Positions 1 through 54,163 of a stretch of DNA of 64,000 nucleotides are shown here, in pieces; position 1 is the first letter of the stretch, and each line of letters begins with the position of its first letter. The DNA comes from Styela clava (Eukaryota; Chordata; Ascidiacea; Stolidobranchia; Styelidae). The translations under genes and the position numbers were made by a program. The stretch spans positions 8,866,001-8,930,000 of the forward strand of contig NC_135250.1 of NCBI RefSeq assembly GCF_964204865.1, read 5' to 3'. A model generated the notes under the pieces. It saw only the letters and a program-made list of their open reading frames with translations, did no database searches and was not told where the DNA came from.

Positions 1-2651
1 AATAAGGTTTAAAACGTTACTATGAAGAAAGGAAAGGTAATGCAAAGATAAGGACATGCGTCGCTCACTCATAGGTATATATGCTGCTAGACTTCTACTG
101 CTTGAACATATATGCAACACGCCGCGGTTTCTTGGAAGCAAAATGCTCAATAACGCGCTGGTTAAAGTCATGCATCCCAGAAATAACGTCTCTGTGAATG
201 GATAAAACAGCCAAGGAATTTAATCTATCTTGCTTCATTGTGTTTCTGAGATACGTTTTAATACGCTTCAGCGTGCTGAATGTTCGCTCTGCGTCGGCGG
301 AAGAAATAGGCGTCGTCAAAATGATGTCCCGAAATTTTGCAGACGCCGCAAAGGTAGTTACTAGAGTGTTATCTATGAGGAACCCATAGAGCGCGCAAGT
401 TGATGTGATGTTCAAAAAAGTTTGATTGGTGTATATACATCGCAATTCATTTTCCAATTTACCCACGTTCATCATGGGGTAAAATTTGGAGACAGTAGCC
501 AACAAATGGATGGGAAATTGACGTGCAAATTTTGAAAAAATTTTGGGGTTCATCAAAGAGAACGCGGCAAGGTGTTCAGTGCGCAGACGATCGCCTATTC
601 GATTCACCAGAATGTCACAGCATTTCTTTGCAGACAAAATCAAACGCTGCGTTGTTTGCCCGCGGCGTAAAGAAGCACTTCATGTGTCGTCGTATTTTAT
701 TGTTTCCCGGATACGAGATACAGCATCGCAGAAGTCTGAAATACACGACTGCACAGACGCTCCATCCATTAGCCTTGACTGCAATGCGCCGTATAATACA
801 TCCACGTGATAGAATATTGTGGAGAAAAAATGAAAACTCACCATCTTCTAGCAGACGCTTTAGACCTGCCGCCTCCCTCACAGAGCGTTCGTCCCAAACC
901 GGAGAGCTCTGAATGCCATTGAAACACTCAATGAGCTCAGACTTAATTTCGGACACGCCCTGCACCACGCGTGATTGGAAGTTCCAACGTGTTGGTGCAC
1001 AAGCTGGGAGACGGCGGCTACATATCTGGCGAAGGAGGTCAGAGCGCTTCGGCGAAACGGAAAAAAATGAAGAAGACCCCGAGACATTTGCAAAACATAT
1101 ACGGACGAGAGGGGTATCAAGACACATATTTTTAATAACGAGGTTAAATTGGTGTGCATAACAATGTAAAAAATGCGCATGAGGAAAATCTTCTTTTATA
1201 TAAGCTTGAACACCATGTTTCGACCCACTCATGACTGCCGCGCCGTCATAAGTTTGAGCTATCAATTTTGACTTCGCGTTGTAAGGCTGTAACACTTCTT
1301 TCAGTACAGCCGATATCCCGCAAGCCGTGCGATCAACGATTGGTACAAAGCTGTGAAATCTCTCGGTAGATTTACCATCTTTCACAAACCGAAAAATCAC
1401 AGCCAGTTGGGAAACGCACGTGATGTCAGTTGTCTCGTCAGACTGAATCGAAAGGAACTGGCAAATCTCAATTTCCAGAGCCAAATGTTGTAAATAAATT
1501 TTATACATTGAGTCGAGCAAATCATTTTGGATATCCTTAGATGTCCCTTTCCAAACAGTTGCGGCATCAAGATGATTTCTCAATACTGTATCTAGGGATG
1601 CGGTGTATTCCATCATATCCAAAAATACCCCTCTATTAGAAGAGCCAGCCTGTTCATCGTGCCCACGGAGGGACAGCTCGTGACAACCAATGAACTTCAA
1701 AACATCTATCAATCGACCGAGAACATGGCGGTTTTTCTCGACGTTTTGGTTGTGCCGACGAATAGAAACCGCGCGTCCTTCATCCATCTGTGCTGCAATA
1801 TTAACATTTCCGAATGTTCGGTATTTTACTGCATTGTCCAGATGCTCCATGGAAGATTGATGATCCCTGGCACGCTCGGAAAGATGTTTAAGATCTCTAA
1901 AACCAAATTTACACCAACGTGAGTCACGGGCGGTAGCAAAAAGTAGGCAATAAAAACAAAAAAGTGCATTTTTGTCCTCGCTGTAACACAACCATTCGTG
2001 TTTTTTATACGAAGTTTCTGCGCAGAATGTACGCCGACGTTGTACCTCTAATTTTTGTTCCAGCGGCAACTGCGAAAACGGAGTGCGAAGTAGTGCATCA
2101 ACCTTATTCATTATGAGGACTAAGGCTAAGAAATGCGAAGCCGGAAAGAAGTGAGGAGCTCAAAAGGAATGTGGAAAATCGAAAGCAAATGGACTAAAGG
2201 TCTCTAACTGATTCAAATAGCGAAACAAGCGACAAAAACGAAGGCGAGGAAACTATCAACTCTTCAAGCAACCAACGAACGAGAAGGAATGCGTGAATAG
2301 GTCAACACGTTGTCGTAAGAAACGTCGGCATTGTGTCGTCATAATTTCGGGGCTAGCCCCGATCGGCCCCGATGATTTAGTAAAAGAAACAGAAAACAAA
2401 CGAGACAAACGCGGCGAGTGGAAGATAAATGAGAGAATACGATATACAATGAGCAACCGGGGCAAAATCGGCGTCGCCCCGTCGACGTTCGGCGAAGGCT
2501 TTGCGAGCGAAAAATGAACCATGTCGGGAGAATATGGCTAGTGTAGACAGTCTGTGCAACCGATATTGAGGTACTTTTCGAATATTTTTTATTATACCGA
2601 AAAAACAACCGGGGCATTGCCCCGGTTGGCCCTATTGACGCGCCGCCACTG
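1..2651 (-). mobile_element. hAT transposon, right-hand portion (left end outside the window)
   Basis: The right end at 2651 reads outward as a hAT-like terminus (complement strand begins CAGTGGCGGCGCG). Just inside it are GC-rich short palindromes such as GGGGCATTGCCCC (about 2610-2625) and GGGGCTAGCCCC (about 2350), unlike the AT-rich surroundings. The only large gene inside is a minus-strand hAT transposase, which starts about 540 bp from this end. No matching left terminus occurs in bases 1-95, so the element continues beyond the window and its target duplication cannot be checked. Basis: terminus and transposase seen in the sequence; superfamily from known hAT features. Confidence 0.8.
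95..2111 (-). pseudogene. hAT transposase with TTF-type zinc finger, broken by one frameshift and one stop
   Basis: The reading starts at 2111 (MNKVDALLRT) and carries, in order: a TTF-type zinc finger (residues about 25-100, with HEWLCYS, FCFYC and a downstream H-x-S-x-x-H), the RNase-H-like catalytic fold with the first acidic site in SIQSDETTD, the second in YDGAAVMSG, then HCYAHQFNLV. The C-terminal dimerisation block (SADAERTFSTLKRIKTYLRN) lies in another frame at about 120-250. A single-base shift near 811-818 separates the two parts, and an in-frame TGA at 680-682 follows it. The family normally cuts and pastes DNA with 8-bp target duplications. With one shift and one nonsense codon this copy should be inactive, but the little decay suggests a fairly recent element. 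A sequencing error at the homopolymer-poor shift site is possible but would not explain the stop. Confidence 0.88.
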
Positions 2652-4148: not shown

Positions 4149-5988
4149 TTACTTTGCAAGTTCTTTCAATTTTTCTCTACACATCTGTATTTCTTTCCGC
4201 CTTGTATCCTCGTCGTCGAAATCTTGGGCATCTTCTATCGCAACAATAGCTTTTTCATAAGTCTCTTTCGATTTTGATCGCTTGTTTAGGATATCATACC
4301 CTACCCCTAAGTTATACAGCATGTTTCCATAAATCCGTCGTTGCGAAGCATGCTTTCCAAATTGTTTCTCCATAGCTGCTACTGCTTGTTCACGGAACCT
4401 GACTCCTTTGGAATTGTCTTTTATCATCCAGTAGTTGTAAGATATCAGGGTTATGGCTAATGCTTGCTTCATTACCCGTTTTTCGGGGTCAGCTTTGGTC
4501 TGCTGTTTTATTTCACCAAGTAATTCCACCATATAATCGATACCAAAGTCAATGGCTAGGACACGAGACCTATCACCAGCATTGATCATAGGGCGTGCAC
4601 AATCATTAGCTTTGTGAATACATCTAAAAAGTCCATCTAGTATCTCATCAGGTTCTTTACCCATCAGGTAGATTTCACTGGCTATGGGGAGCATAATCAA
4701 TGCACTGGTAAAGGAAGAATTCCCAATAAGATCGTCTATCAATGCCATTATGTCATCGACATCGGGAAAAGGATCAGATAGAATAATTTTTTTAATTTCT
4801 TTAATAGCTTTCGATGCTTTATTTTCTCTTCCTAGTTGCAAGTAACACACCGCCATGAGTAGCTTAATTCCTAATGTTGTTTCTTCATCTTCTACTGATA
4901 CTTCTTCGAGAGTTGAGATTGCTTCGTAATATTTTGACTGGGATGCTAATGCTCTAGCTTTTTCTGAACAAATAGTAAAACTTGATTAGCAAACAGCCAA
5001 TGTGCGTCGCAACAATAACAATATATATATAGGCTATCACTCTTTGAAAAAACAATATTGTTGTAGTAGACATAATTTTTATCAGGTGCAAAAAACTGGT
5101 TATTCTATTTCAACAATTACAGTCTATTCCATTCAATTTATTAAAAAAAAAACACTTAATTTCTTAGGGCAGTAAACTGCCAAAGTTTGTCCACTTTAAA
5201 TTTATTTCGCATTATACTTGGGTAATTGGATTTGACACTTTCACGTCATTACAGCAACTTTCGAATGCAAAGTACTTTATTTGGAGTAACTTTTGATGGT
5301 GAAAATCAACGAAGTTATACGTATTGATTGATACATTTCGAATGACATTTTATTTTTTTATCATCGTATTATTGACTTGGTTTTACCTCTTTGAAGAGCC
5401 CGAGTCCTTGCCTTTCGACTGTTTGCACCTGCTTCGTCTTTGGAAAGAGTGCTTGGAGACGAAGCGCCTTCTGAAAAAGTATGTGTTCTTATACTGTAAA
5501 AATTTTCAGTGTTTTCTAGTGCATGATCTAGCGTTACAAACTTTGAAATGCTAGATGGATATGTGTGTAGATGTGTTAGCAAATAGGCTGAACAAATCAG
5601 TTTAAAAAAGTAAAATACTTTTGTTGAATGTTGATACCAGCAATCGGCTTATCACTCAGATAAATAGATATAAAACCGGACTCAAGTACACCATATTACT
5701 TACCAATTACTGCTTCCTCAGTGCTTTCAGTTTCTTGTCTGTAGAAAAATTTGAAAATTGATCTCACTCATGATTTTTTCGTATTTGACAATGCATTGCG
5801 TTCACAGGACTAAGTTCTGTCACTGAGTGTGAAAACTCACTGTTATCACTTTATTAGTGTGATTTTCCAATACAGGCTTAATTAAAAGTCGCAGTCATTA
5901 TGAAAGTACCATGCCATTATGTAGCTAACCTGATTGAAACGTTGGAAGCTTCGATCTCGATGTTTTCAATGTTATCTTCAGTAGTCAT
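4149..5988 (-). CDS. TPR-like helical repeat protein, copy 1 (3 exons)
   Basis: Exons: 5930-5988 (start MTTEDNIENI), 5704-5738 and 4149-4963; joined frames give 302 residues and all introns are GT-AG. The product is mostly amphipathic helix pairs of tetratricopeptide type: the first around EKARALASQSKYYEA (residues about 30-45) and CYLQLGRENKA (about 70-80), the last around MLYNLGVGYDILNKR...YEKAIVAIEDA (about 245-280). No signal peptide, membrane segment or catalytic motif is seen, so a cytosolic protein-binding role is the natural inference; the partner is unknown. It is clearly paralogous to the genes at 7916-9085 and 9746-11387: the large last exon is exactly 815 bp here and in copy 2, with the same splice phase before (E)(K/R)ARALAS. 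I know no named family that matches the whole chain. Confidence 0.8.
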
Positions 5989-7915: not shown

Positions 7916-9085
7916 TTAAAGGTCGACTTGTTTCAACTTTTTCTTGCACTCTTGTATGTCATTGTTTCTCTCCATTTCGGTATCATAATCTTTGGCATCC
8001 TCATATGCTTGAACAGCGTTTTCGTAAGCTTGCTTCGCAAGATCCTTTTTATTCAATATATCGTATCCAACACCCGTGTTGTAGTACAATTTTCCGAGAA
8101 CCCTTTGTTTTGAAGCATTTTTGCCGAATTGCTTTTTCAGTGATGCAATCGCTCGTTCTCGAAGTTTAACCCCTTTATGGTTATCGTTAATCTTCCAGTA
8201 GTCAAACGCCAATAAAATTGTAGCTAAAGCCTCCTTAGTTACTTGTTTTTCTGGATCACATCCTGATGTTTCTCTCAAATCGTCAAGCAATTCCGCCATA
8301 TATTCAATTCCGAAATCTATCGCAATGATACGCGATCTTCCCTCCTTTTCTATCATCGGAGTGGTGCATTCGCTCGCTGCGTGAATACAGCGAAAAAGCT
8401 TATCTATCACATCGTCTGGTGAATCTAACTTTTTGTACATATCACTTGCTATCGGAAGCAGAATTAATGCACATGCATATGATTTACTTTGTATGAAATC
8501 GTATATTAACCCCATGATATCCTCAACATCTGGATTGGGTGCAGAAAGCAAGGCTTTTCTGACGTCCTTCACATATTTCATTGCTTTATTTTCTCTACCA
8601 AGGTACAAATAGCAATGTGCCATCATCAGTTTGGTACTGATTGAGGTTTCCTCATCTGGTATTCCTGTGTCATCAATTAATGAAGCAGCCTCGTAATATT
8701 TTGATTGAGATGCAAGAGCTCTCGCACGTTCTACAAAGTAGAAAAATAGTGTAACATCAGTATAATTTCCAAATCCGTTTGCTATTTACTTGCGATCGTT
8801 ACACTGCTTTTGGAAAATTCCTTGCTAATTGAACATCGTTATTTGTCATAAATCGATCACGAATAGCAAATCAATTTAAACTGAGAAATGCTGATAAATG
8901 CATATTATTTTATATCATACAGATAGAAAATAATATGAAGAGGGTTTTATTAAACATTTTCTTTGAGCTATTTTGAATCCGCGCATCGCAATTATGGCTA
9001 ATGATAATTATCGATTTGAATTACACAGACAAACAAACTTACCTTGTCGTAGAGCAAGTAAAATTGAGTCATCCTTATCCTCCAT
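7916..9085 (-). CDS. TPR-like helical repeat protein, copy 2 (2 exons)
   Basis: Exon 1 is 9043-9085 (MEDKDDSILLALRQ), exon 2 is 7916-8730; the joined frame gives 285 residues. The splice falls at the same phase-1 position as in copies 1 and 3, before (E)RARALASQSKYYEAAS. The body aligns along its whole length with copy 1: CYLYLGRENKA, DVEDIMGLI, IDFGIEYMAELL, KGVKLRERAIASLKKQFGK, YYNTGVGYDILNKKDLAKQAYENA. The small middle exon of copies 1 and 3 is absent, so exon 1 joins straight to the large exon. It lies head-to-head with copy 3, whose start is 660 bp away, so the two may share a promoter region. The function is unassigned; a scaffold or binding role is inferred from the repeat type. Confidence 0.82.
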
Positions 9086-9745: not shown

Positions 9746-11387
9746 ATGGATAATAACTGCAGAGGTAAGTTACTTGATGTAGGTAAAAAAATATCTTCTT
9801 ATGTATATAGCAAGGATATCTGAAGGGCAGGGTTTTTATTTTTAAATTGGTTGTTATAAATCTAAAACCAGGGCGCCGTTTTGGAATGATTATTTATCAA
9901 TACGGATATAACAGTAAAATGTATCCAAATTAAACGATCTCTAAAAATCTATTTAAAAACTTAATTCTGTACTTTGTATTAGGGTAAGTATTCAGGGTAA
10001 AAATGAGAACTTTTTGCGCGTAGTGCAACGTATTAGACGGAAATTATCGAAATTGAGTCTGTCGCCTAGATTGACATTTCATGTAAGTTTGCTCACAGTA
10101 ATTCGGAAGCTCTCGAATGGTAAATGTTGAGGCGAATACAACCACTGACGCACAGCTAATAAGGCGTTTTCATTTTAGAAAATTAATCTATTTCGTGTGA
10201 TATATATTCTACGAAATAGGTTAATTTTCTGATATATATATTCCATTGAGTGCAGAAAACTTAATCCGCATTCTGATTTTTTTTTCATTTTCGGTTCATG
10301 TTCAGACTCGGAAGAAAAGCATGGCATGGTACAAGATTTTATTTTGGAAGGTAATTTAATCATGTAATATGTTTTGATATAAAGTAACGCGCGTTTTCCC
10401 TCTGCCTCCCCATTTTAAACTTCCTAATACTTCCTAGAAAGAGCCCGAGCTCTCGTGGGTAAATGCAAATATTATGAAGCCTCGTCTCTGCTTGATAATC
10501 TTCGTGATGTGGACAGTGCAGATTTGGATTTAAAACTTCTAATGGCAGAATGTTATTTACAATTGGGAAGAGAAAATAAAGCAGAGAAAATAGAAGGAAG
10601 CATCAGAAAATATTTTATTGGATCAGGATTGGATGTTATGGATGAGATTATTGCCATCGTCGATGTATTAACTGCTGGTCAAGCCATACTTTTGCTTCGC
10701 ATTGCCTGTGATATAGTATTTGCTTCTGCAAAGTCACCTGATGAAGTGATAGAAGGGGTGTACCGCTGCATCGATAAAATGAGAACGTCTATTAGAAAAC
10801 TCCTAGACTCACAAGGCTTGTCATCCCTGTCGATAGAGGGTTTAATTGGGCAACTACAAGGGCAATTTTCAAATCTATTAAGGCCTTTAAAGGCATTGAA
10901 CTCGATCGATTTATTGTCAGAAAGCAACCAAAAACCTATGAATCCAGATTCGACCCGTCTCCAAGTCATTGGATTAGATTTCGGCGTTGATTATATGATT
11001 GAAATGCTAAACAAATTACTCGGAATAGAAGTTGAGAATACGGAGAAAAAAGCTATCAAATTAGCTTGGATTTGCAGTCATATTGGCTATAATCTTGCCA
11101 TTATCAATGACAACACACGTAGCATTAACTTTCGTAAACGTGGTGTCAGTATACTTGAGTCTGAATTCAGAGAGCATGCAAACAAACATAACGTGTATGG
11201 TGTTTTGCTACATAATATTGGAATTGTGCTTGCAAATTCTGGAAGACGTGACGAAGCTGAATACTTCTACATTGAAGCTATAAAAGCTAAAGAGACAGCT
11301 ATTGATTATGGCGACACGAATGAGCAGCAGAAAGATATCAAATTGTCAAGAGATGCTTTAACACGCGTGCGCTCAGGGCCCATTTAA
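9746..11387 (+). CDS. TPR-like helical repeat protein, copy 3 with internal insertion (3 exons)
   Basis: Exons: 9746-9764 (MDNNCR), 10306-10350 and 10438-11387; frames join to 337 residues. The conserved splice precedes (E)RARALVGKCKYYEAS. Shared landmarks: LLMAECYLQLGRENKA, VIGLDFGVDYMIEMLNKLL, RSINFRKRGVSILESEFREHANKHNVYG, HNIGIVLANSGRRDEAEYFYIEAIKAKE. Compared with the other two copies it carries an extra segment of about 45 residues (roughly residues 140-185, including IGQLQGQFSNLL) just before the IGLDFG motif. It is the most diverged of the three. It is on the opposite strand to copies 1 and 2, so one duplication was inverted. No targeting signal is seen and the function is unknown. Confidence 0.8.
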
Positions 11388-17710: not shown

Positions 17711-18733
17711 ATGTCAAAGGTAAGTTTGCTTTACTTGAATTTAAAAATTCTCGGAAGAATACTATAGAGCAAAATTTATAGACTTTTGAATCAAGATCGC
17801 TAAAATAGTCATGCAGGCCAAATAGAGGCTATGCGATGTGAGTTGCCAGTAGATCTAACTACTTATAGAAGTACCAGTAGACACTTTTGCATTCTATTAG
17901 ATGGGAGTAAAAAAAATCCTGGAACTTTTTTAGGGTATTCACTATGATTTGTTATATCAGTCTATGAACAAAATAAATTAAAAAATAAATTTTCTTTAAT
18001 TTATTTTAATGTGGTAATCTGGTAAATATTTCTAACATTAAATCATAATAATCTTGTTTTAGGTAACATGTATAATTCAACTGCTTTTTATCACAATCGT
18101 AGCGGTCTCCGTCCAAGATGTTACATGTTGGGATCCATTGTAAGAAATTATATTATTTTGAGAAACTAGTTCTTGTGTAGAACAAAATATCGTGCGGATA
18201 GCCTATATATCTATTCATATTAGAGAAGAGTTTACAAAATCTGGCTTTAGATTTGAATGTATTTTCGCCATTTTGTTTCTTTAGTTGCCATGCGGATTTT
18301 AACAACCCAAATCAAGTTTGGATTTTCATTTGGTTTATGTTATGCGAGTACACCATAAAGGTTTTGCTGATATTTGTCAAGAGCCCGAATAATCAAAACT
18401 TAGCCTACATTCATGATCATGTTATTCAGTTCAGATGAATCATTGCTTTTTGGCTGTCACATTAAGAAAGAAAGCGAAGTCGCCTTAAACCTGAACTCGT
18501 TCGAACCAAAGTTGGAAATAAAAGTTGAATGCAAAGAAGGGATCGAATTTACTACTTTCATGTGTCTGCAGTTTTGCTACGATCCAGTCAATCAAAATTC
18601 TCCCAGATCGATTCCAGGCAAAGTCCTCAGAAACAAAGATTTGTTTGAGCAAAAAACGTTTAATACAACGACTCATAAACAAAGAAGAATAAAAGTTACC
18701 TATGGATGTAGATGTGTGTTGGAAGATAAATAG
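17711..18733 (+). CDS. Small secreted cysteine-rich protein, copy 1 (3 exons), cystine-knot cytokine-like
   Basis: Exons: 17711-17719 (MSK), 18063-18139 and 18430-18733; 129 residues. Exon 2 supplies the rest of a signal peptide (CIIQLLFITIVAVSVQ) and ends in TCWDP. The mature part of about 105 residues has seven cysteines: CWDP, FGC, VEC, FMC, QFC and GCRC. The spacing of the last ones (VECxxxxxFxTFMCLxFCYDP ... RRIKVTYGCRCVL) suggests a small disulphide-rich, growth-factor-like fold. The C-terminal V-x-x-GC-x-CV resembles the end of IL-17 family cytokines, but I cannot align the rest, so this is only a suggestion. Two paralogues share the exact exon plan, including a 9-bp first coding exon. 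Splice sites are GT-AG and phases agree (0, then 2). Confidence 0.78.
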
Positions 18734-28964: not shown

Positions 28965-29979
28965 ATGTCTAAGGTAAGTTCGCTTCACTTGATATTGAAT
29001 ATACTTTGGAGAATACTACAGAAAAAAAATTATAGAGTTTTGAATCAAGCTGGCGAAAAATAGTGAAACAGGTTATGAGTCGCCAGTAGATCTAACTCCT
29101 TATAGAAGTACCAGTAGAAACCTTTGTATTCTCTTAGATGGTAATAAAGATGAAGTACTGGAGCTTTTTGGGGGATTCATTGTGATGTGCTTTATTAGTC
29201 TAAGAACAAAATAAATTTAGTTGATTTATTTTTATTTTAAATATTTTTAACATCAAATAATTTTCATCGTCTTTTAGGTAACATGTATGATCCAACTGCT
29301 TTTTCTGGCAATCGTGGCGGTCTCTGTCAAAGACGTTACATGTTGGGATCCCTAGTAAGAAAACATTATGTACTTATTTTATTTTAATGAGATAGTTTTA
29401 GTGCATAACAAACTATCGCGGAATAGTTTATTCAATTTTTTACACTATGGAGATCATATTTCATCCTTTGTTCTGCCAGATTTGAAATTATTTTCGCCAT
29501 TTTTTTTATACCATTGTTGATTTTTTTTTAGTTGCCTAGTGGGCTTTAAAAACCTAAGTCAAGTTTGGATTTTGATTTGTTTCATGTTGTGATATCATAA
29601 TAGTTTTATTAATATTTGTCAAAAGCCCCAAATATTCGAAAATTATTTTACACTCATCATGATCATGTTATTCAGTTCAGATGAATCATTGCTTTTTGGC
29701 TGTCACATAAAGAAAGAAAGCAAAATCGCTTTAAACCTGAACTCGTTCGAACCAAAGTTGGAAATAAAAGTTGAATGCAAAGAAGGGATCGAATTTACTA
29801 CTTTCATGTGTCTGCAGTTTTGCTACGATCCAGTCAATGAAAATTCACCAAGGTTGCTTCCAGGCAAAGTTCTCAGAAACAAAGATTTGTTTGAGCAAAA
29901 AACTTTTAATACAACGACTCAAAAACAGAGAAGAATAAAAGTGACATATGGATGTAGATGTGTATTGGAAAATAAATAG
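28965..29979 (+). CDS. Small secreted cysteine-rich protein, copy 2 (3 exons)
   Basis: Exons: 28965-28973 (MSK), 29278-29354 and 29676-29979; 129 residues, the same exon lengths and phases as copy 1. The signal region is CMIQLLFLAIVAVSVK, then DVTCWDPY. The last exon differs from copy 1 by only about seven residues (for example SEVAL to SKIAL, NQNSPRSIP to NENSPRLLP, TTHKQ to TTQKQ), all cysteines are kept, and no stop or frameshift is present. The surrounding introns and flanks carry many indels and substitutions. This contrast suggests that the coding exons are under selection and that both copies are functional. Function is as discussed for copy 1: a secreted ligand-like protein, family not assigned. 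Confidence 0.78.
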
Positions 29980-35615: not shown

Positions 35616-36771
35616 TTAATTGTCACGTTTCCGAGGTCTATCTACCAGGACACATCGGCAGCCATATGTGACGTTTACCCTTCTTTGCGTTCCATTAGGC
35701 AAATCGAAAGTTTTTTCTTCAGACAGATCAACATTTTCGAAAACTGTGTCTGTTTTCGAAACGGGTGACGCTTGTTGAACAGGGTCGTAGCAGAAGTTTA
35801 AGCACATGAACGTTTGGAACTCTATACCGCCATCGCATTCAACATTAACCATCAGTTGCGGTTCAAACGAGTTCATGTTCAACTTGACCTCGCTGTCTTT
35901 TGTTAAGTTACATCCAAATCTTATCGCTTCGGGCGAACTGAAAAAAAATAGAATATTCGTGTTTCTATTTCAAAATTTCAAAAATCACGGATGGGATTAG
36001 TATTTCCGATGTTCAAGCTAGAACAAAACGTCCAGATTGGAATTTTATTCCGTGTGATCCAGCGCCTAAAATTGATTCCAACCAAGACCAAACAGTTCAT
36101 ATTGTAGTTTAGAATAAATGACACATCTACTCTGAAAAACACCTGCAAGAAGTACCACACTAGAATTTTTCAAGTTTATTTATCTGGACATTAATTGGGC
36201 CAGAATTTAAAAATCCAGCTCGAATCACAATTGTATGCAACTTTTCGTTGATAGTGGAATTCAGTACCTCAGCTCAGTTGATTTCCTGTTTCTATTGACG
36301 CAAACGGCTTTAAATCTTGCGTCAATCGGTGGTATTTACCAATGCGCGGTCCTACATTATAACGCTTTTAGTGGCTCTTGGCCTTTTAGTGGTCACCGTA
36401 GCTTCGCTCAGTGATTATCTTTTAAATTGATTGTGTGATTTCTCGTTACTTTGCTTTGAGTGATTTTTCTTAAAAAACATCTCACGCCTTCTTATGTTTG
36501 AACTTTCGAAAATAATAGAAATAAATGGTTTATTTAATATGTTATACCTTTTTCACAATGTAAATACTTGGTAAACTCTAACTAGAAAAATATCTGAATT
36601 ATACATACTTGGGGTCCCAACATGCAACGTATATCGGACCAAAAATCGACATCAACATTGCCATCAGCGGTAAATTGAAAATGCTCCTTATCTGTTAAAC
36701 AATGTTGAAATATATTGCATATTCTAAGTTGAAGGTGACGCTGATTTTGTTTCAACACTTACTTGAGCCAT
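35616..36771 (-). CDS. Small secreted cysteine-rich protein, copy 3, diverged and inverted (3 exons)
   Basis: Exons: 36763-36771 (MAQ), 36609-36691 and 35616-35937; 137 residues. Exon 2 gives a hydrophobic leader (LPLMAMLMSIFGPIYVA) followed by CWDP, as in copies 1 and 2. Exon 3 keeps every cysteine and the family landmarks: FGCNLTKDSEVKLNMNSFEPQL, VECDGGIEFQTFMCLNFCYDP and RRVNVTYGCRCVL, then a basic tail RPRKRDN. Between the fifth and sixth cysteines the sequence is freely variable. The 9-bp first coding exon and the splice phases are identical to the other copies. The opposite orientation and greater divergence show an older duplication. The conserved block from EF to CYDP marks the likely structural core. 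Confidence 0.78.
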
Positions 36772-44061: not shown

Positions 44062-45239
44062 TTGTAGCGAGACAAGATGTGAGAAGTGAGATCCGTGATT
44101 TTGTTATGTCCTAAAAGTTGTAACAGACATGTTGCCATTAAGTGCATACCGTGTGCTATATTTCACCCATTCTTGGATTAAACTAATTCTCTTTGCTTGA
44201 ACTAAGGCTGGGTTCATTACCAATTTCAAGACTGAGAAGTTAGTATGTTCTTTGCATTAATTTGTCACTTGGCGGGCGCACCAAAAAACAAACATAATGT
44301 GTCGCTTTGTGATCCGCGAGCCGAGAGTTTGTCATACCTACGCTGCAGTAGGTGATTGACGTCTGTGCTTGTACGCTTCATACCGTTGACTTAGCACTGC
44401 GTCTTGAAGATGTCATTTGCAAAGCTGCCTTGGTTTTGTAAAATAAGGTATGTATTATTTTGGAATGAGCGAAGCCCTTGAATTATAGTGCATCTGTTGT
44501 AATAATCTGTTGAACTAGGCCTAGTTGTAAATAACCCCAAAACTTACTAAAAAGTCCAAACATCTACCGACAGTCAGTCACTGTGGCCGAGCGAGAGCTG
44601 ATAAAATTAGATATGTAACAGACTATATATATTATGCTGACTGGTTTCTACGCTAAAACCAATTATTTGAAGGTCAAGCTAGTCTATTAGGCTACGAGAC
44701 AAAGTCTTGAAGACCAGTTTCGTAGCGACCATGAGATGAATAAGTAAAATATAGGGGTTTTGTATGAAAATGTACGCGTGTCAGCTCGACTCCCGATAAT
44801 ATTCGTTTAAATCTACAATGCAAAGCCTGCTTTCAAAACGATTCTTTTAACAACATGCAGCTGCTGTAATTAATTTTCAGTTAGCACAGACCTGGCAATG
44901 GAAGATAATTTTGTATGAAAAATACCTCTTAATTTGATGCAATTTTATTGCAATGAAAATGTGGGTGCTTGAATTAGTAATGAATGAGTGAGAATAATTT
45001 TGAAGACATTTGTACGTTTACGTATAGTTACTTATGACAGGTTGAGGTTCCAAAAAACATGCCACAAGGTATGATGCAGGCCAAACCGACGAATGAGTCA
45101 CATACATGCTATATTTGAAATGACTTAAAATGGTACTTTACAACAGACTTTTGTGTGTGTACTTTTGTTTTAAATGACGTTGAATAAAACCTAAAACAAT
45201 GTACGACTGTCATTAGATATTTTCGGACTAAAATATCAT
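44062..45239. other. Spacer downstream of the lipocalin gene
   Basis: No gene. A minus-strand AATAAA (44944-44949) is a possible polyadenylation signal about 290 bp past the lipocalin stop. Confidence 0.4.
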
Positions 45240-48200
45240 TTATAGTTCAATTTTAGTATGGCCAGGATTTTGGTAGGATGCAGACAATCGTTTGCAATCT
45301 GTTGGGTATAGCTTCAACAGCTCCCATCCACCACCGATTTCTTCAAGTTCGTTTGTTGCAGCGGCGACCTGTTCCGGTTGAGATTCAGGCGACGGCACAA
45401 AAACAGTTACGACTCTTTTACCTGCAACGAAAGTATGTCTGATTCGTGTAAGTTGATAAATTATCTATATTGTGAAATTTTATTCATAGGGTGTTATTTT
45501 GTTTGTTAGTTTATTCATCCAAGTTAATATATACACATAACATACCTGTATGGCCACAACATGTAAGCTTCATTGCGTAGTTTTTGTAGTCAGATACCAT
45601 CACAAAGTCTGAGCTTTCTCTGTCATCTTGGTATAAGGTGGGAAAGAAATATGTCAGAATTGAAGGAAATGAATGTAAAAAAGCAAAGAAGTCTGAAACA
45701 CAAAATACAAAAATATGCTGGCAAACGTGTGAACGCAGTCCGAAATTTCAGTTGGCATCAAAGCGTTTAAATTAATTTCAATTTTGATATGTGATATGTC
45801 GGGAGGCAAAGTCAGTTAGGGGTTCAAACAATATATATTACAATCAGACCCAGTTAAAATCTTGATCTCTGCTATTGGGCCGAGGCCCCAAAACAACCCC
45901 CTTTGCTTTATTACACTTCAAGTCCAAGATATCGTATTGTAGTATAATATGTATTGTGTTATATATGGCTACAAGCCTAATCACAATACAATTATTACGC
46001 ACATTTTCGATAAAAGAAAAACTGAATCAAGTGGAATAGGCCGATAAAATAGAGCTCTTGTTTACAAGGTGCAACTAAATCCTATTATGTACACGCTGTT
46101 TAATTAAATCTCTAATCATATAAAAAATAGCATCCAGACTCGACAAAAATTCAAAAAAACTTACTGCCACCCTGTTTCTCCGTAAATCTAGAATTTCCAA
46201 CTTTCTTGTATTCCTTGTGATCTTCGCTATGGGAGTGTTCATCTCTGAAACAAAGATGCAACATAATTTAAGAAGTTGAGCGCACAAACAGAAGAAGCGA
46301 GCCAGTGTTATAAGAAAGAGAAAAGAACTTTTCAAAGTGCAAAAGATGAAGGAAAATAAAAAGAGACTAATAAAATTAAATTCGGTTTAATTTTATTTTT
46401 CGTTTTGAATGCTCAGACAAATCAAGTATGCTGCTCAAATGTATTGCTGTTATAAAATTCCAGGTTTTTCAATTTATATATAATAGGTTTTTAGTGATAT
46501 TCAATTTAAACCAAAAAGGTAATAAAGGCGAAAGTTTAAGAGAATGATGAACTGAGACAATACAAAAAACGATTGTATATATACCCAAATTTGGTGTGTT
46601 CTATTGCGACTTTTCCGCCGTCACTTGTTCCTCCAATATCTTTGTATGCAGTACAGCCACTAATTTCATGGGACTTTCCAGCGGTGTACCAGGTACCTAG
46701 AAGCTGATATGCGGTATTAATAATATTAATTACAAGTCAAAGCGCGAATTAGAGAATTTAATCCTAACTGAACAACTTTACAAACCTTTTCAAATTGAAA
46801 TCCTTTGGTAACATCTGGTAGAGTACATTTTGAGTGTCCATGGTTTTCACTTTCAACAACCACATCGTGAATGTCATAATTAACATTTGGTAGGTTTTTG
46901 CATTCAGTAGGATATAATTTCACCAGTTCCCAGTCATGTCCGATTTCTTCTAGACGATTAGTTGCTGCTGCAACTTGTTCGGGGAATGATTCTGGATTCG
47001 GTGAAAAAATATCTACAACCTTTTCGCCTTGAAATAGAAAAAATATCCAGATCAGTCTTGATCTACATGTATATTATATTTTTAAAATATTTGTCTTTTA
47101 CCTCGACACAAAAATTGAGACTCCTTATTTTTATTAATACTTTTATACTTATATTATATTGTTCAATTGTATAGGGCAAACATACATTCTACCGATATTC
47201 AACTACTCGATTTTGATACTTAATATGTCGTATTTGAAATTGCGTCAAAATTTTTCCACCAATAAAACTGTAATACGAATTAAATTCTATAAGATTATTA
47301 CTGGTGATGAAGGGATTGGCAAAATGAAATCGATTTGCCTAAAAACTGAATTTGGTGGTACACAAATCTATTGAGATATATATAATTAGAGTTTCTACAA
47401 TTCCAACAGGCTCCAAACAACTAAAATAATATGATCAATTTCTAAACTCACCACTGTGATGATCGCATATCAGTTGCAATAAATAGTTTTCGTAGTCAGA
47501 AAATAAAACAACTTCTACAACATTTCCTGAAAAAAAAACTATCAAATTTACTAGGATGAAAATTATTCTGATTGATTGGTAGTCCATTGCCCAGCCTGAC
47601 GCATGAAGGATTATGGATACAATATAAACGAAACGCAAGTAACAACGTATTAGCATGATTCCCTCCTTAAAACATGTTTTGTAACCCAAGCGCTGCCACA
47701 TGAAATCAGACATTTGAATAATAGAGGATATTTGCATGAATGCATGATGCAAAAAATACATGAATGTTATATTTTTTCCGACACGAAAGTGTGCTTAACG
47801 ACATTTTTTTATTTTTTTCATTTCCACACAAGTTTCGGTAAACTGCATTCATGTGATACAGTGAGAATTTGCAATTTTGAATGCAAGCTAATTGATTTAT
47901 ATATATAAATTATTATTTCAAATATTATTTTCATAATATCTTACCCAAATGTGACGTCTTTACAAATCTTGAAGGTCCAACTTTCTTTAAATCATAATGT
48001 GTCAACGTGTTTTGAGTTTCATCACTGCATAATGATAAAATTCATAAATAAATTGTTAGGTTACGTTAACACGGTGTCCAGGAAAGGCATAAATAAATAC
48101 AGGACGATTCAGATGACTAGCGACCAAAACATGTAAACGAAATACGGGATTTAAAACGCTACCAAAAAAGTGAGTGAACATATCGGAAAGAATGAAATCT

Positions 48201-51200
48201 TTACTTTATATTGAAATAGTCCGAATCAACTTTTCCAGGACTGACTCCTCTAATGGCAGTACAACCTTTGAGTTGTGTAGATTGTCCAACCATGTACCAT
48301 CTTCCCTTGAGCTGTTTTAAAAATAAATACATTTTTTAAAAGTAAATAAATTTTATCATGCTGCGACCCGGCTCATTTATCCTAATCGGCATAGATTCGA
48401 GCCTGATCTTAATATAAAAAAATGCTGTTCAAAATTATCTGATGTCTGTCAATCAGGTACAGCTAATTCGAAATGCTTCAAAAATAAAATCCGAGTTGTG
48501 GAGGTATGTTGGAGCAGTGATTTTCAACCGGTGTTCCGCGGGGACCTCCAGGTGTTCCGCGAAAAATTGCTTTTTCGAAGTATTATGACGTCTTTCGAAT
48601 AATATAAATAGAGTCGATTTGAAAACGGCGAGTCAGAGTTTTAAAAAGTCGGTATAAAAAACTTGTAACCAGATAAGAAATGACAGGCCATATTCCCTTT
48701 TAATAGACTTTATCTCGACGAGTATTTTTAGTGACCCATTCCATTCTTGACCAAATAATGTTTCGAAAATGTGAACATTATACTCGACCATGAATGGAGT
48801 CATCATCGGAGTTGATTACATTCGTTGCATTTTGAAGCTTTTCTTGCAGTAATAATTAGGGTGTGGCATCATCAAAATCGTCAAGTGAAGTGTTAAATTT
48901 GCAAATTCCGTAAATAAAATTGTGAATTTGTAGGTAACGATTTTAGCTATGATAATGGTCGCGGTATTGTTTTGTTGGGAAAGAAAACGTTAAAACTCGA
49001 GGTGGTTAATTCTAATCAGCATGTAAGATATCGTTAAAGAAGTGCTCTTTATCGTCATCTCGCCTAATGACCACGTAGAAATGTCTTTATTTCAGCTTTT
49101 AAATCAACATTCAGGATTCACGCAATCACAGATTTATCTAATCACAGTATCTAATTGATTTATTCCGGAAATAACACTGACACCAATGTGGTGCATAAGA
49201 AACTCAATTATTGTCTTAATAAATGTGTGCATCCCGTTGTCGATAATGATAATATTATTCGCTAAACTGGGACGTTTAATTTGCAAACGGCGATAAGTTA
49301 GATCTAAGCCAGCGCAAAAGATAAAAATCAGAATAAAATTAAGTTGGAATTTAAAAGCGCTCCATTAATGTCATTAACATCTGTGTCCGATGTGAACGCA
49401 TATAGTTCTACCAAAATATGAAACTTCGATCTCCGCCGATCGACAAGAATTAATACTTGCGCACAAGAACAGTGGCGGTAATATGATAACGTTCAGGGGG
49501 CAAAAAAAGTAGCGATTATGACGAAATTAAACAGTAAAAATCGCTTTGCTGCCAATTTTCAATGTTTCTATTAATTTCCAAATCGACCTCCGACCTTCTG
49601 GACTCCTGTTGCGTATAAAAAAAACGCGAGAAATTGAGAGACGTTGAGAAAGAGCTGCGTGTTTGTCTCTCCTCAATTACAGAATAAAATATTTGAAACT
49701 ATTCGAAACAGACCCAAATATCACACTAAAATACTATTTCTGTTTCTAGCTACCGTAATCATAGTATTCATGAGCAAACTTGCAAAAACATATATTTGTG
49801 CCGTACTTTAGCTCTCGTAGCTCTGAATCGGAATGTGTCACGTCTTTTCCTGAAGTTGACAAGCTATATTACTGATTTCGTTATTTTATTTTCATGCCGA
49901 AATGATCGACGTCAGTTAATTGCATAATATAGTTTATTTCCAAAAATTCCGTTTGGTGTTCCGCCACAATTTCAGATTAAAAAAAGTGTTCCTCGGTACA
50001 AAAAAGGTTGAAAATCAATGTGTTGGAGGTTCAGTCTCTAAAAATATGCTTATACCACTGGTATAAGGACTCATTAGTGTTTTAGACTCGGGTTTACCTG
50101 TTATCAAGACCATTATGAATACGAACCTGGTGTGAAATATACTGCTCCGACACTTCAGGCAATTCACAACTGTTTTTCGAATACGGTATTTTTTTGCAAT
50201 CAGTGGGATAAAGTTTCACTAGTTCCCAACCCTCACCGACATCTTCTAGAGCGTTGGTAGCCGCAGCGACTTGTTCGGGATGAGATTCCGGATTGGGTAC
50301 AAGAACTTCAATGACCTTTTTTCCTGAATATGCATAGTATTTGAATTCAATGTTGAAATTTTTAAGTTACTAGTTTTAATAAAGACGCATCGCGCATTTG
50401 TGATTGAAAAGTTAATAATATTGTAGCAAACGTTTTCATTCCCCACTACTAAAACTAAAAATGTTGGAACGGTAGGACACTGGCCTTCCTGCATTTATTG
50501 CACCGTCCTACCTTTATTATAGCTATAAAGGCAAACTCAAGAAGGTTTTTAAAATTCTCTGTAAATATATTATGAAACATATAACATTGTCATCGTCAAA
50601 ATTGTTTGCCATTGAGTGAGCAGAATACTTCAATATGTTGAATACATAATAACAAACGTGAAATTTACCTGTTTTAGCGTCACAGAACAATTTCATTATG
50701 TATTGCTTAGAATCAGAAACGATTACGAATTCCGGAGAAAATTCTTTATCTGCCAAATAAATAAAAAATGTTTTATAATCAATCTTAAGAAAATTGAAAA
50801 TAGTAGTTAAATTTAGGATAAAATGATTTTGACTATACTAGAGGTGGACGAAATTTTTTTTATAAAGTGCATTATATGTAGCAAAGTACGAATTATATCA
50901 TGTACATAAAAACAAACATATCATCGCTTCAAATATTTTAACTTTCTAATTCAAATCATTGGAATACCAAAATGTATGTTGACCACAAGTCCTACCTTTG
51001 CTAGATTTTACTGCAAATCTGGATTTGCCAACCTTTTTGTACTCGTATTGGAGAATCTCAGTTTTGTGCGAAGCATCACTAAATAATTTAAAAAAATGAA
51101 ATATGCATTTTGGGGTAGATTGTATTTTGTCCAATATGACCAACCCCGTGATATTGTTGACCTTACATCAAAGTCACAAATCGATGTAAATGTTGGCATT

Positions 51201-52640
51201 CGTTATTTTCAGACGTCTAGCTGGTACCTGACATCTTTTGGCGAGAAACAAATTACTTATATTACCGTGAGTTCTCATATTTTTTATTGATCCAAATTAC
51301 CGTGAATACATGCTTATATATCAATTTGTCTTTTATATCAGCTATTTAATTAAGTCTTTAATGCAAATATATATTGATTTATTTTGAAAAATAAGTTGTC
51401 AAAAGACGGACTCTCTGCATTATTGATCAAATATACAAATTGCATCTCACGCAAAATTGTGCAATTCGATATTCACAGTGCCAGTTGTGGTAGTTTGTGC
51501 GTGAAATTGACTGTCGACTCTGCATCTAGAACCTTCAGTATACGACACTCCGACTGTGTACCATTTCCCTTCAATCTGTAATTTTGAGTTGGAGTTCGTG
51601 AAAAATAAACGTAAAATATTTCATTTGGAAATAATACATTTAACATTGAGTTTGTGCACCGCAAATTAACATGATCAAGAACACTAAGGACTAAATTATT
51701 GTATTATATTTGAATATATTCCCCACTGTTTTTTTAAAAAAAAATAGTTTGTCGTATTATATACATTCCATTAAGTATAGTATTGCATATAATACCTGTT
51801 ATTATTCATTGTCCATATTCAATTCATATGTACGGAAAAAAAATTACAGTACATTACATTCAAAGCGTCCCAATTGTTCAGAATGAGGGCAACTTGTTAT
51901 ATAAAACAGGGATAATCAACTATTTTCACTAGAGGTCCGTACACAAAATATTTATTAAATATCACGGTGATCCGGTGATTCCACAAATACATTTTAACTA
52001 TGCAAACAAAATTTCAAATGTATCGTTTGATAAAATACAAGAGCAATGCTCAATATCGCGCTTCGGTGTCAATATAACAAGGTTTCAGTTGTTCAGCTGA
52101 GCGCCGACTTTGCTTGAAAGATGTGAAACATTTGCCACAATAGCACACGTAAATAAATATTTTAAAATCTATATTTGGAATATATTAGTTGCTGAGAGAA
52201 GCGATTTTTCTCCAAGTAATATTAAGAAAACCCACAACGTCCACGAGAATTTCATCAAAACGATTTTTTTTAGTTGTTCACCGAAAAATGCATTACATCA
52301 CGATTGTGAAATAAAAAGAAAACGGTGCATTCAAAGTCAAGAAGCAACTGCGGTCCAAATTTAATACTCGAACGGTCCGGATTCGGACCGCCAGTTGAGT
52401 AGCCCTGATGTAGAAAACTAAATGTTTAATAGTCGAATAAGATTATAATATTATTCCATAATGCATAATATTGTTGATTTGCATGATTTCCACCGACACA
52501 AATTCATTAAAAGTTGGGCTTACTTTGTCAAAATTTAAATCTTCCTTCACATGAGGTAGCGCACAATTTGTGCTTCCATAAACTACGCTGGGAACAGAAG
52601 CTATACACAACAAAACTGCTAATTTTGCCATAGAATCCAT
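45240..52640 (-). CDS. Secreted three-domain lipocalin polyprotein (13 exons, 522 residues)
   Basis: Exons, in coding order: 52524-52640, 51451-51575, 50996-51078, 50669-50749, 50127-50323, 48205-48311, 47945-48024, 47452-47526, 46786-47027, 46585-46703, 46165-46244, 45546-45626, 45240-45421. Total 1569 bp, one open frame, all GT-AG. Signal peptide: MDSMAKLAVLLCIASVPSVVYG. Three lipocalin domains follow. Each opens with C-x-LP-x-V and the G-x-W strand motif (IEGKWYTVG, LKGRWYMVG, LLGTWYTAG) and has a K-K-V-G-x-S-R-F strand. Each ends with PE(S)xPEQVAAATNxLE helix, W-E-L-(V/L)-K-LYPT(D/E)C. Lipocalins are extracellular eight-stranded barrels that bind small hydrophobic ligands. The start resembles apolipoprotein-D-like members. 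Each domain spans five exons with the same intron phases (0, 2, 1, 1), so the gene grew by tandem domain duplication. Confidence 0.9.
48515..50020. mobile_element. Non-autonomous hAT element, 1506 bp, inside a lipocalin-gene intron
   Basis: Ends CAGTGATTTTCAACC and GGTTGAAAATCAATG are inverse copies with one difference. TGTTGGAG flanks both sides (48507-48514 and 50021-50028), a perfect 8-bp target duplication. It fills most of intron 5 (48312-50126). Near both ends GTGTTCCGC recurs. No transposase frame remains. Confidence 0.92.
51907..52407. mobile_element. hAT-like non-autonomous element, 501 bp, in lipocalin intron 1
   Basis: Ends CAGGGATAATCAACTA and CAGTTGAGTAGCCCTG are imperfect inverse copies. 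Flanks ATATAAAA and ATGTAGAA agree at six of eight positions. Subterminal GGTCCG motifs lie at both ends. It is older than the element in intron 5, judged by the decayed target duplication. Confidence 0.7.
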
Positions 52641-53310
52641 CTTCGTTCAATGACCTCCACACTAAAATAGAGGTTTATCGGACAGCAATATTTAACTCTT
52701 GCACTGACACAGGTATTGCGGAAATGTGCTCACTGACTGACCCGTATCTACGTGTGGCAAAGTCGAATATCTCTTTTTCAGACGTGCACGTTTGAAATTA
52801 ATGATCAAATTTACGTTTTATTTGATGTTAAATAACATTTGTACTATTAAGAATTACGTGAACATAAGCATTTTTCTGCGTATGCATCAGAGAGTATTAA
52901 CGCTTCGGTGTTGCAGTTACACCGAGTGTCATGTATCGGAGTAATGCTTTAATTTACACAAATAAAATAAAAATTTCGTAGTATATGGCATATTTAAAAT
53001 CAATCATTTTATGCAAAGGAAGCAGTCGATCATGATCATAAATCATCCTGCAAATAAATGGCATGGGTACCCAGACGAAAACGATAGGTTTCGTAATGAA
53101 AGATACATATACACGTGATATTTTATAACAATTAATGTCGCAATTAATTGGATTGATCATCTTTTCATGCACCAACATCTTGATTACACCGGTTTTAAAT
53201 GATCGATAGTTTGAAAATCAGTACCTGGGCTTGTTTGGATGATTTCGAAGTGCCGAGGTTGTTATGGGTACCTTCAATCTTGCGGACACCAATATTTGAC
53301 CACAATTTTA
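52641..53310. promoter_or_regulatory. Upstream region of the lipocalin gene
   Basis: Immediately upstream (minus-strand sense) of the start at 52640. A TTAAATATTG stretch on the complement at about 52686-52695 is a TATA-like candidate about 50 bp upstream, but this is weak. The remaining sequence holds no gene. Confidence 0.3.
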
Positions 53311-53590
53311 AAGAGTTTGGTATTTTTGATGTAGCATAACCTATTTTTGGCACAATCACAAATATACATTAGCTATCACATAGTGAAAGCCTGTTACGAT
53401 TACGATGGTAAAAGCCAAATTGACTGTTTACCATATCGAAAACAAATATTGCAAATACTTATTTAACAATGCTACATTTTACAGAGTACAAGTCGAATAG
53501 TGTTCATTCGGTCATCTTCAATATCGTTAACGGCCAATCAAGCTCAACAGTTACTCAATTTCAATATTAAACTCTTACTAGCGCGAGATA
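53311..53590. repeat. Diverged direct repeat, left copy
   Basis: Shares, in order with 54871-55220, GATGTAGCATAAC, TTGGCACAATCACA, AGCTATCACA, AACAAATAT, CAATGCTACATTT, AATTTTCATATTAAA-like and GCGCGAGA. Copies differ by many substitutions and indels. The two hAT-like elements at 53764-54732 lie between them. Confidence 0.65.
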
Positions 53591-53763
53591 GCATTCGAAC
53601 ATGAATGCTTGGGCCACATTGTTGTCAGTGATAGGTTAGTTAATGGGTGGGCAGGGTTTTCAGAATGGCGAGCCATGTAAGTGTGACGTAATAATTTAGC
53701 TATCAATCTTTACGAATTAGGATGTAAATTATTAGAATTCATCCGGAAACGATAGACTATAGT

Positions 53764-54163
53764 CAGTGGTTCCCAAACTTTTTTGTATCATCGCCCCCTT
53801 ACAACTTTTGTAATTTATACAACTTTTTCGCCCCGCAGCATTAAGAAAATTTTAAAGTCAGAAACGATAATTTTAATATTTGCGTAATATAATGCAATGT
53901 CGGGCACTATGCTTTAAGACAAAAAAGGCACACTCGAAAACATTTCACACGAAGAAAAACTATCAAATAATGTGTCGGCCAAAAATTGAAATAGGTGAAA
54001 CATAAAATAATACCATATATTTGCGTAATAAAATTGCAGTGCGGGACACTCATTATTATATGCTATTCTTTTCTTTTCCACTCATTTTTAATTTCTGCCA
54101 GTCCGCGAGTACAATTTATTTAATTTTACCGGTCCGCCAGGGTAAAAAGGTTGGGTACCACTG
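53764..54163. mobile_element. hAT-like non-autonomous element, 400 bp
   Basis: Ends CAGTGGTTCCCAAAC and GTTGGGTACCACTG are inverse copies with one or two changes, closely related to those of the element at 13610-14525. The right subterminal GGTCCGCCAGGGTA is shared with that family's left end. No convincing 8-bp duplication is seen, possibly because the neighbouring element disturbed the junction. Confidence 0.75.

Follow-up and report, generated by a model that had tools for sequence, protein, structure and literature searches.

The tunicate Styela clava carries, on contig NC_135250.1 of assembly GCF_964204865.1, a gene that joins three lipocalin-type domains in one reading frame. The gene runs on the minus strand from position 52640 down to 45240 of a 64,000-nucleotide stretch (positions 8,866,001 to 8,930,000 of the contig), which is referred to below as the window. 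Lipocalins are mostly single-domain carriers. In the present case we consider it likely that one gene encodes a secreted, ApoD-like lipocalin chain of about 56 kDa with three pockets, and that it originated by the head-to-tail duplication of a single-domain gene.

Structure of the gene

The gene model was read from the minus strand of positions 44500-54000, where open segments were listed and then spliced at GT-AG borders. This sequence-based reconstruction joins 13 exons, as follows.

Exon 1, 52524..52640, minus strand: signal-like peptide and N-terminus of domain 1 (first Cys)
Exon 2, 51451..51575, minus strand: domain 1, with GKWY; phases 0 to 2
Exon 3, 50996..51078, minus strand: domain 1
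Exon 4, 50669..50749, minus strand: domain 1, VSDSKQY, third Cys
Exon 5, 50127..50323, minus strand: last part of domain 1, with LYPTDC; 9-residue linker; first part of domain 2
Exon 6, 48205..48311, minus strand: domain 2, GRWY
Exon 7, 47945..48024, minus strand: domain 2
Exon 8, 47452..47526, minus strand: domain 2, FSDYENY
Exon 9, 46786..47027, minus strand: last part of domain 2, with LYPTEC; 24-residue linker; first part of domain 3
Exon 10, 46585..46703, minus strand: domain 3, GTWY; preceded by an 82-bp intron
Exon 11, 46165..46244, minus strand: domain 3; another in-frame GT is found 6 bases ahead of the used donor
Exon 12, 45546..45626, minus strand: domain 3, VSDYKNY; neighbouring Cys 458-459
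Exon 13, 45240..45421, minus strand: last part of domain 3, with LYPTDC, and the stop codon

The coding sequence of 1569 nt specifies 522 residues and a stop codon, and all 12 introns, from 82 to 1815 bp in size, are GT-AG. A preliminary description of this DNA had proposed 13 exons in one 522-residue frame with one signal peptide and three domains, a G-x-W and an LYPT(D/E)C motif in every domain, a repeated order of intron phases, and exons that end one domain and open the next. The model rebuilt here from the sequence is identical: there is one signal-like start, the domains contain GKWY, GRWY and GTWY and end in LYPTDC, LYPTEC and LYPTDC, respectively, the phases run 0,2,1,1 in each of the three repeats, and exons 5 and 9 are the shared ones.

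Exon 1 starts with MDSMAKLAVLLCIASVPSVVYG, a signal-like segment having a hydrophobic 10-mer mean of 2.96; the signal-like peptide was taken as residues 1-22, with the cleavage point set by eye. The predicted mass of the chain is 58.3 kDa, or 56.0 kDa from residue 23, and the predicted isoelectric points (pI) of domains 1, 2, and 3 are 6.2, 5.0, and 6.3. Measured from Cys to Cys, linker 1 has 9 residues and linker 2 has 24, both lying within single exons. Intron 5 is largely occupied by an insertion of 1506 bp (48515-50020), whose inverted ends are nearly identical (CAGTGATTTTCAACC and CATTGATTTTCAACC) and which shows an exact 8-bp duplication (TGTTGGAG). We take inverted ends together with an 8-bp target duplication to be the signature of a hAT transposon, and the insertion is presumably hAT-like.

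The three domains and the lipocalin family of the genome

The Pfam profile PF00061 matches the whole chain in three stretches with 34.7 bits against a cut-off of 23. A profile built from the three domains finds apolipoprotein D (ApoD; 2hzq) in the PDB with an E value of 1.2e-4 over columns 2-149 of 164, and triabin with 1.4e-3. When three paralogs are added, the six-sequence profile retrieves bilin-binding protein (2.8e-7), ApoD (3.5e-7), and insecticyanin (4.6e-6), followed by retinol-binding protein from 0.0013 and crustacyanin at 0.0018; non-lipocalins appear from E 0.046. A profile of the last exons alone gave no match in the PDB, and the profile of Triabin, a lipocalin relative, reached 18.2 bits on domain 3, below its cut-off of 21. 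ApoD and insect bilin-binding protein/insecticyanin are thus the best solved relatives across most of the domain, but each has one domain only, and the window domains differ from them in having Pro in place of the Arg of the third conserved region. The first structurally conserved region (SCR1) of lipocalins, G-x-W near the N-terminus, is present in each domain as GKWY, GRWY, and GTWY. The second (SCR2), [TS]-D-Y-x-x-Y, is found as SDSKQY, SDYENY, and SDYKNY, Ser replacing the first Tyr in domain 1. Taken together, the profile and motif comparisons support the assignment of the three domains as lipocalin homologues. Lacking the Arg of the third region, they would belong with the 'outlier' rather than the 'kernel' lipocalins.

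Four Cys per domain stand in invariant columns, as in ApoD-type lipocalins: 26/57/131/178 in domain 1, 188/218/284/331 in domain 2, and 356/386/458/505 in domain 3. Their pairing into two disulphides is assumed here from ApoD. Each domain would form its own eight-stranded antiparallel barrel with two disulphides; the profile match to ApoD supports the barrel indirectly. Domain 3 has one additional Cys, 459, adjoining Cys 458; speculatively, it could permit a bond to a partner.

The domains are 45.9% (1-2), 51.3% (1-3), and 42.5% (2-3) identical, and the stretches invariant in their alignment are Cys, G-x-W-Y, P-E-Q-V-A-A-A-T-N, and L-Y-P-T-x-C. For the same pairs the nonsynonymous divergence (dN) is 0.46, 0.44, and 0.58, whereas the synonymous divergence (dS) is 1.90, 2.19, and saturated. 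As dN is much lower than dS in every pair, all three domains are under purifying constraint. At the DNA level, strong similarity between the repeats is confined to stretches of exons 5, 9, and 13 (72-76% identity, E at most 5.3e-8); the remaining listed pairs extend over 16-34 bases with E 0.014 or worse, several of them being palindromes and one lying in exons 7/11. No intron-to-intron alignment as such appeared in this self-comparison of the gene. Because the introns do not align and strong DNA matches occur only at exons 5/9/13, the duplications are regarded as old, with the frame preserved.

The similarity among the repeats is far above chance. In whole-genome searches, which covered 376.6 Mb, the exon 5 query matched exons 13 and 9 in their homologous parts with E 9.6e-18 and 3.9e-17, and the next place only with E 0.0034. 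In a tree of 19 last exons (three from the window gene and 16 from paralogs chosen among the fetched loci; 46 columns), the window domains fall on one side of a branch with support of 99/97. On these comparisons, the three domains share a common origin.

The genome itself has a large lipocalin family, as judged from searches with two queries. Searching with the 66-residue fused exon yielded 43 matches at E<=1, namely three window exons and 40 other places, the latter from E 0.0034 down; only exon 5 of the window covered the full query. The last exon of a paralog gave 272 candidates, of which 150 were scored. Among these, 54 rows reached E<=1.5e-9 (three of them with an in-frame stop), and 14 rows, two of which overlap, lie within C1:6.86-6.95 Mb on the contig of the window gene. 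From the fused-exon search 27 loci were translated and from the last-exon search 30; seven were shared, which leaves 50 distinct places. A second N-terminal module was absent in all 57 translated loci, where the frame stops at most 34 residues past the last Cys.

One paralog (L034) is a complete single-domain gene of six exons with phases 0,2,1,1,1, a signal-like start, and 215 residues, only 27% identical to domain 3. A further one (L035) was read over four exons: its first intron is in phase 0, a 140-nt exon 2 ends in phase 2, and an 81-nt exon is followed by the start of the last exon. These two and the lipocalins of the C1 clusters share the intron order, where read (all of L034 and part of L035), and the C-terminal pattern with the window gene, but they stop soon after the last Cys. 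The order 0,2,1,1 therefore looks like the family's own single-domain layout, to which L034 adds one phase-1 intron; the triple gene would accordingly have been built from whole copies of the single-domain structure. The single-domain L034 with its phases fits an internal duplication of an ordinary gene. The intragenic duplication advanced in the preliminary description thus gains support from the three-domain clade, on 46 columns, and from single-domain paralogs with the same intron order. Two other copies, L060 and L061, are intronless frames; L060 alone finds ApoD with E 2.6e-4 and scores 15.9 bits with PF00061, below the cut-off. In the window, tblastn with the chain and the domains revealed no other convincing lipocalin gene outside 45240-52640 (best outside E 0.66). 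A six-frame PF00061 scan of the genome returned nothing at E<=0.001 and missed the window gene too, being too blunt for split exons; it does not count as evidence of absence.

Two further sets of lipocalin copies were observed. At G000:C1:7106086-7142088, on the contig of the window gene and 1.77 Mb away from it, twelve lipocalin last-exon matches lie within 36 kb on both strands, in open frames of 221-276 codons, as an apparent intronless lipocalin array. A dispersed repeat of at least 10 kb carries several lipocalin-derived pieces, one of them inverted (L066, L067, L068-L071, L073, and L074, on contigs C14, C8, C9, C17, C13, and C16). Its C14 and C8 copies are 96-98% identical, and in both the lipocalin-like frame is broken; four more copies, chosen for long frames, have 217-218 codons between stops and no clear start. 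Thirty of the 150 scored rows resemble the degenerate second piece of this repeat, as checked in the C14 and C8 copies. By eye, neither clear terminal repeats nor a long transposase-like frame could be made out in this repeat; it is likely a mobile element that captured lipocalin copies.

Integrity of the gene and its product

Several points weigh against the reading as an intact chain of three ApoD-like lipocalin domains. The lipocalin identity expected by the preliminary description stood in the Pfam test for the chain as a whole but not for its parts, since PF00061 gives 13.4, 22.7, and 14.9 bits on the single domains, all below 23. Domain 3 alone finds only insecticyanin (E 0.2) and sandercyanin (E 1.4) in the PDB. 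The third structurally conserved region (SCR3) of lipocalins has an Arg before Asn-Pro; the window domains read VPNP, SPNP, and VPSP, with Pro for Arg in all three, although several paralogs (SRNP) and ApoD (ARN) retain the Arg. The clade of the three domains depends on 46 columns and on selected paralogs. Finally, the pair KK at residues 179-180 leaves some room for cleavage.

This pair bears on the possibility that the gene encodes a polyprotein, i.e., one precursor cut at its linkers to release three single lipocalins in equal amounts. Linkers of 9 and 24 residues do separate the last Cys of one domain from the first Cys of the next, and KK 179-180, right after the last Cys of domain 1, is the sole dibasic pair in a linker. 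However, a scan for [KR][KR] and RxxR detected no RxxR site across the whole chain and no dibasic pair in linker 2. The remark that no furin-like dibasic site is obvious at the junctions holds to this extent, and processing into three proteins seems to us rather unlikely. We assume instead that the chain remains whole and serves as an extracellular three-pocket carrier of small hydrophobic molecules. The pockets of such a soluble carrier need not be equal, as the differing predicted pI values suggest.

It is very improbable that three adjacent genes, each having a promoter and a first exon of its own, have been mistakenly merged. Matches to lipocalin last exons do occur in clusters at other places of the contig (C1: 6.86-6.95 Mb and 7.11-7.14 Mb). 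However, exons 5 and 9 cross the domain boundary without a stop or a Met and end at GT donors, and at neither junction does a Met lie in the stretch from the closing Cys of one domain to the opening Cys of the following one. Introns 5 and 9 were scanned for an alternative first exon, with an ATG frame and a hydrophobic start; none was detected, and the same scan recovered exon 1; intron 9, ahead of exon 10, offers 82 bp only. In addition, none of the 57 fetched paralog loci (50 distinct places) continues into a second domain. Domain 2 or 3 as a gene in its own right would require a start, and none was found; this supports one gene, as originally described, with both linkers inside exons. Three separate genes were rejected on account of the run-through exons and the lack of an alternative signal exon. 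Equally hard to credit is a decaying gene or a non-functional relic of lipocalin duplications: in-frame stops interrupt some family copies (3 among the 54 best rows), but the window gene has 522 open codons, GT-AG borders at 12 of 12 introns, and dN well under dS in all three pairs.

Possible origin, known relatives, and other features

A single-domain lipocalin gene with introns in phases 0,2,1,1 was probably duplicated head to tail. The DNA between the last Cys codon of copy 1 and the mature N-terminus of copy 2 would then have been lost, leaving the last exon of copy 1 to read on into an N-terminus of copy 2 that lacks the signal peptide. The four-exon module, bounded by phase 0 on both sides, could have been duplicated once more by unequal crossing-over, this order of duplications being our inference.

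Chained lipocalins are a known kind of protein, a point that the preliminary description does not raise, and the three-domain tunicate gene is a real and uncommon variant of them. Polycalin of the lepidopteran midgut is anchored at the membrane and, like the window gene, has several lipocalin domains per chain. It differs from the window chain, which ends in ...SASYQNPGHTKIEL without a hydrophobic tail and is no large anchored array. PMC10145054 gives Plutella polycalin 15 lipocalin-like structures, and PMC4985599 likewise treats polycalin as a multi-domain lipocalin; the tunicate chain has three domains, and nothing links it to chlorophyllide. The grouping of the three domains among the sampled paralogs of their own genome suggests an origin separate from that of the lepidopteran protein. 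AimA of Aeromonas (PMC6219842) also chains lipocalin-like domains in one secreted protein; it is bacterial, with two tethered domains, each active alone, and is likened to the window gene by description, not by sequence. The same holds for yeast Svf1, another protein with more than one lipocalin domain; it is intracellular, acts at the ER (endoplasmic reticulum)-Golgi interface, and has two domains, between which ceramide is proposed to sit (PMC10583516). Three other reports tried as tandem-lipocalin cases (PMC8310156, PMC5399370, PMC9779611) were set aside, as the portions available describe no such chain. No tunicate multi-domain lipocalin was met in the literature searched, which takes in few subscription journals.

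The chained forms met in this search come from Lepidoptera, yeast, and one bacterium. If the reading of the window gene as a three-domain chain is correct, it would show that duplication of exon modules can string the fold together in another line of animals, the tunicates, which are the sister group of vertebrates; the gene would also provide a small system for studying multivalency in ligand binding. A chordate survey reports a single lipocalin in Ciona (PMC8420045), with which the large family of the present genome contrasts. We lean slightly towards the broader view that chordates acquired a polycalin-like protein of independent origin: the lipocalins of one tunicate would have expanded to some fifty or more gene-like copies together with a soluble three-barrel chain, whose co-evolving pockets may hold ligands together.

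Elsewhere in the window, long frames at 98-2159 (minus strand) resemble by eye a hAT-type transposase. Three long frames at 4152-4985 (minus), 7919-8785 (minus), and 10428-11384 (plus) seem by eye to belong to one family; the first, the only one scanned, has weak tetratricopeptide-repeat matches below the cut-offs. Related cysteine-rich frames at 18404-18730 (plus), 29593-29976 (plus), and 35619-35969 (minus), with the pattern FMCLQFCYDPV ... VTYGCRCVL, appear to form a small family on both strands; the one scanned had no Pfam match at E<=1. Rfam gave no match in the window at gathering scores. Of the markers used to place the animal, mitochondrial COX1 had no match in the assembly, whereas a GH6 match was found on contig C9 with E 1.5e-6; with its surroundings, this match indicates that the genome is probably that of a tunicate. 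The surrounding 9 kb contains, on one strand, cellulose-synthase-like segments followed by GH6, all above the cut-offs (PF13632 60.6 bits, PF03552 28.5 bits, GH6 42.4 bits); according to PMC6523144, every tunicate genome contains cellulose synthase, and the genomes of other animals do not.

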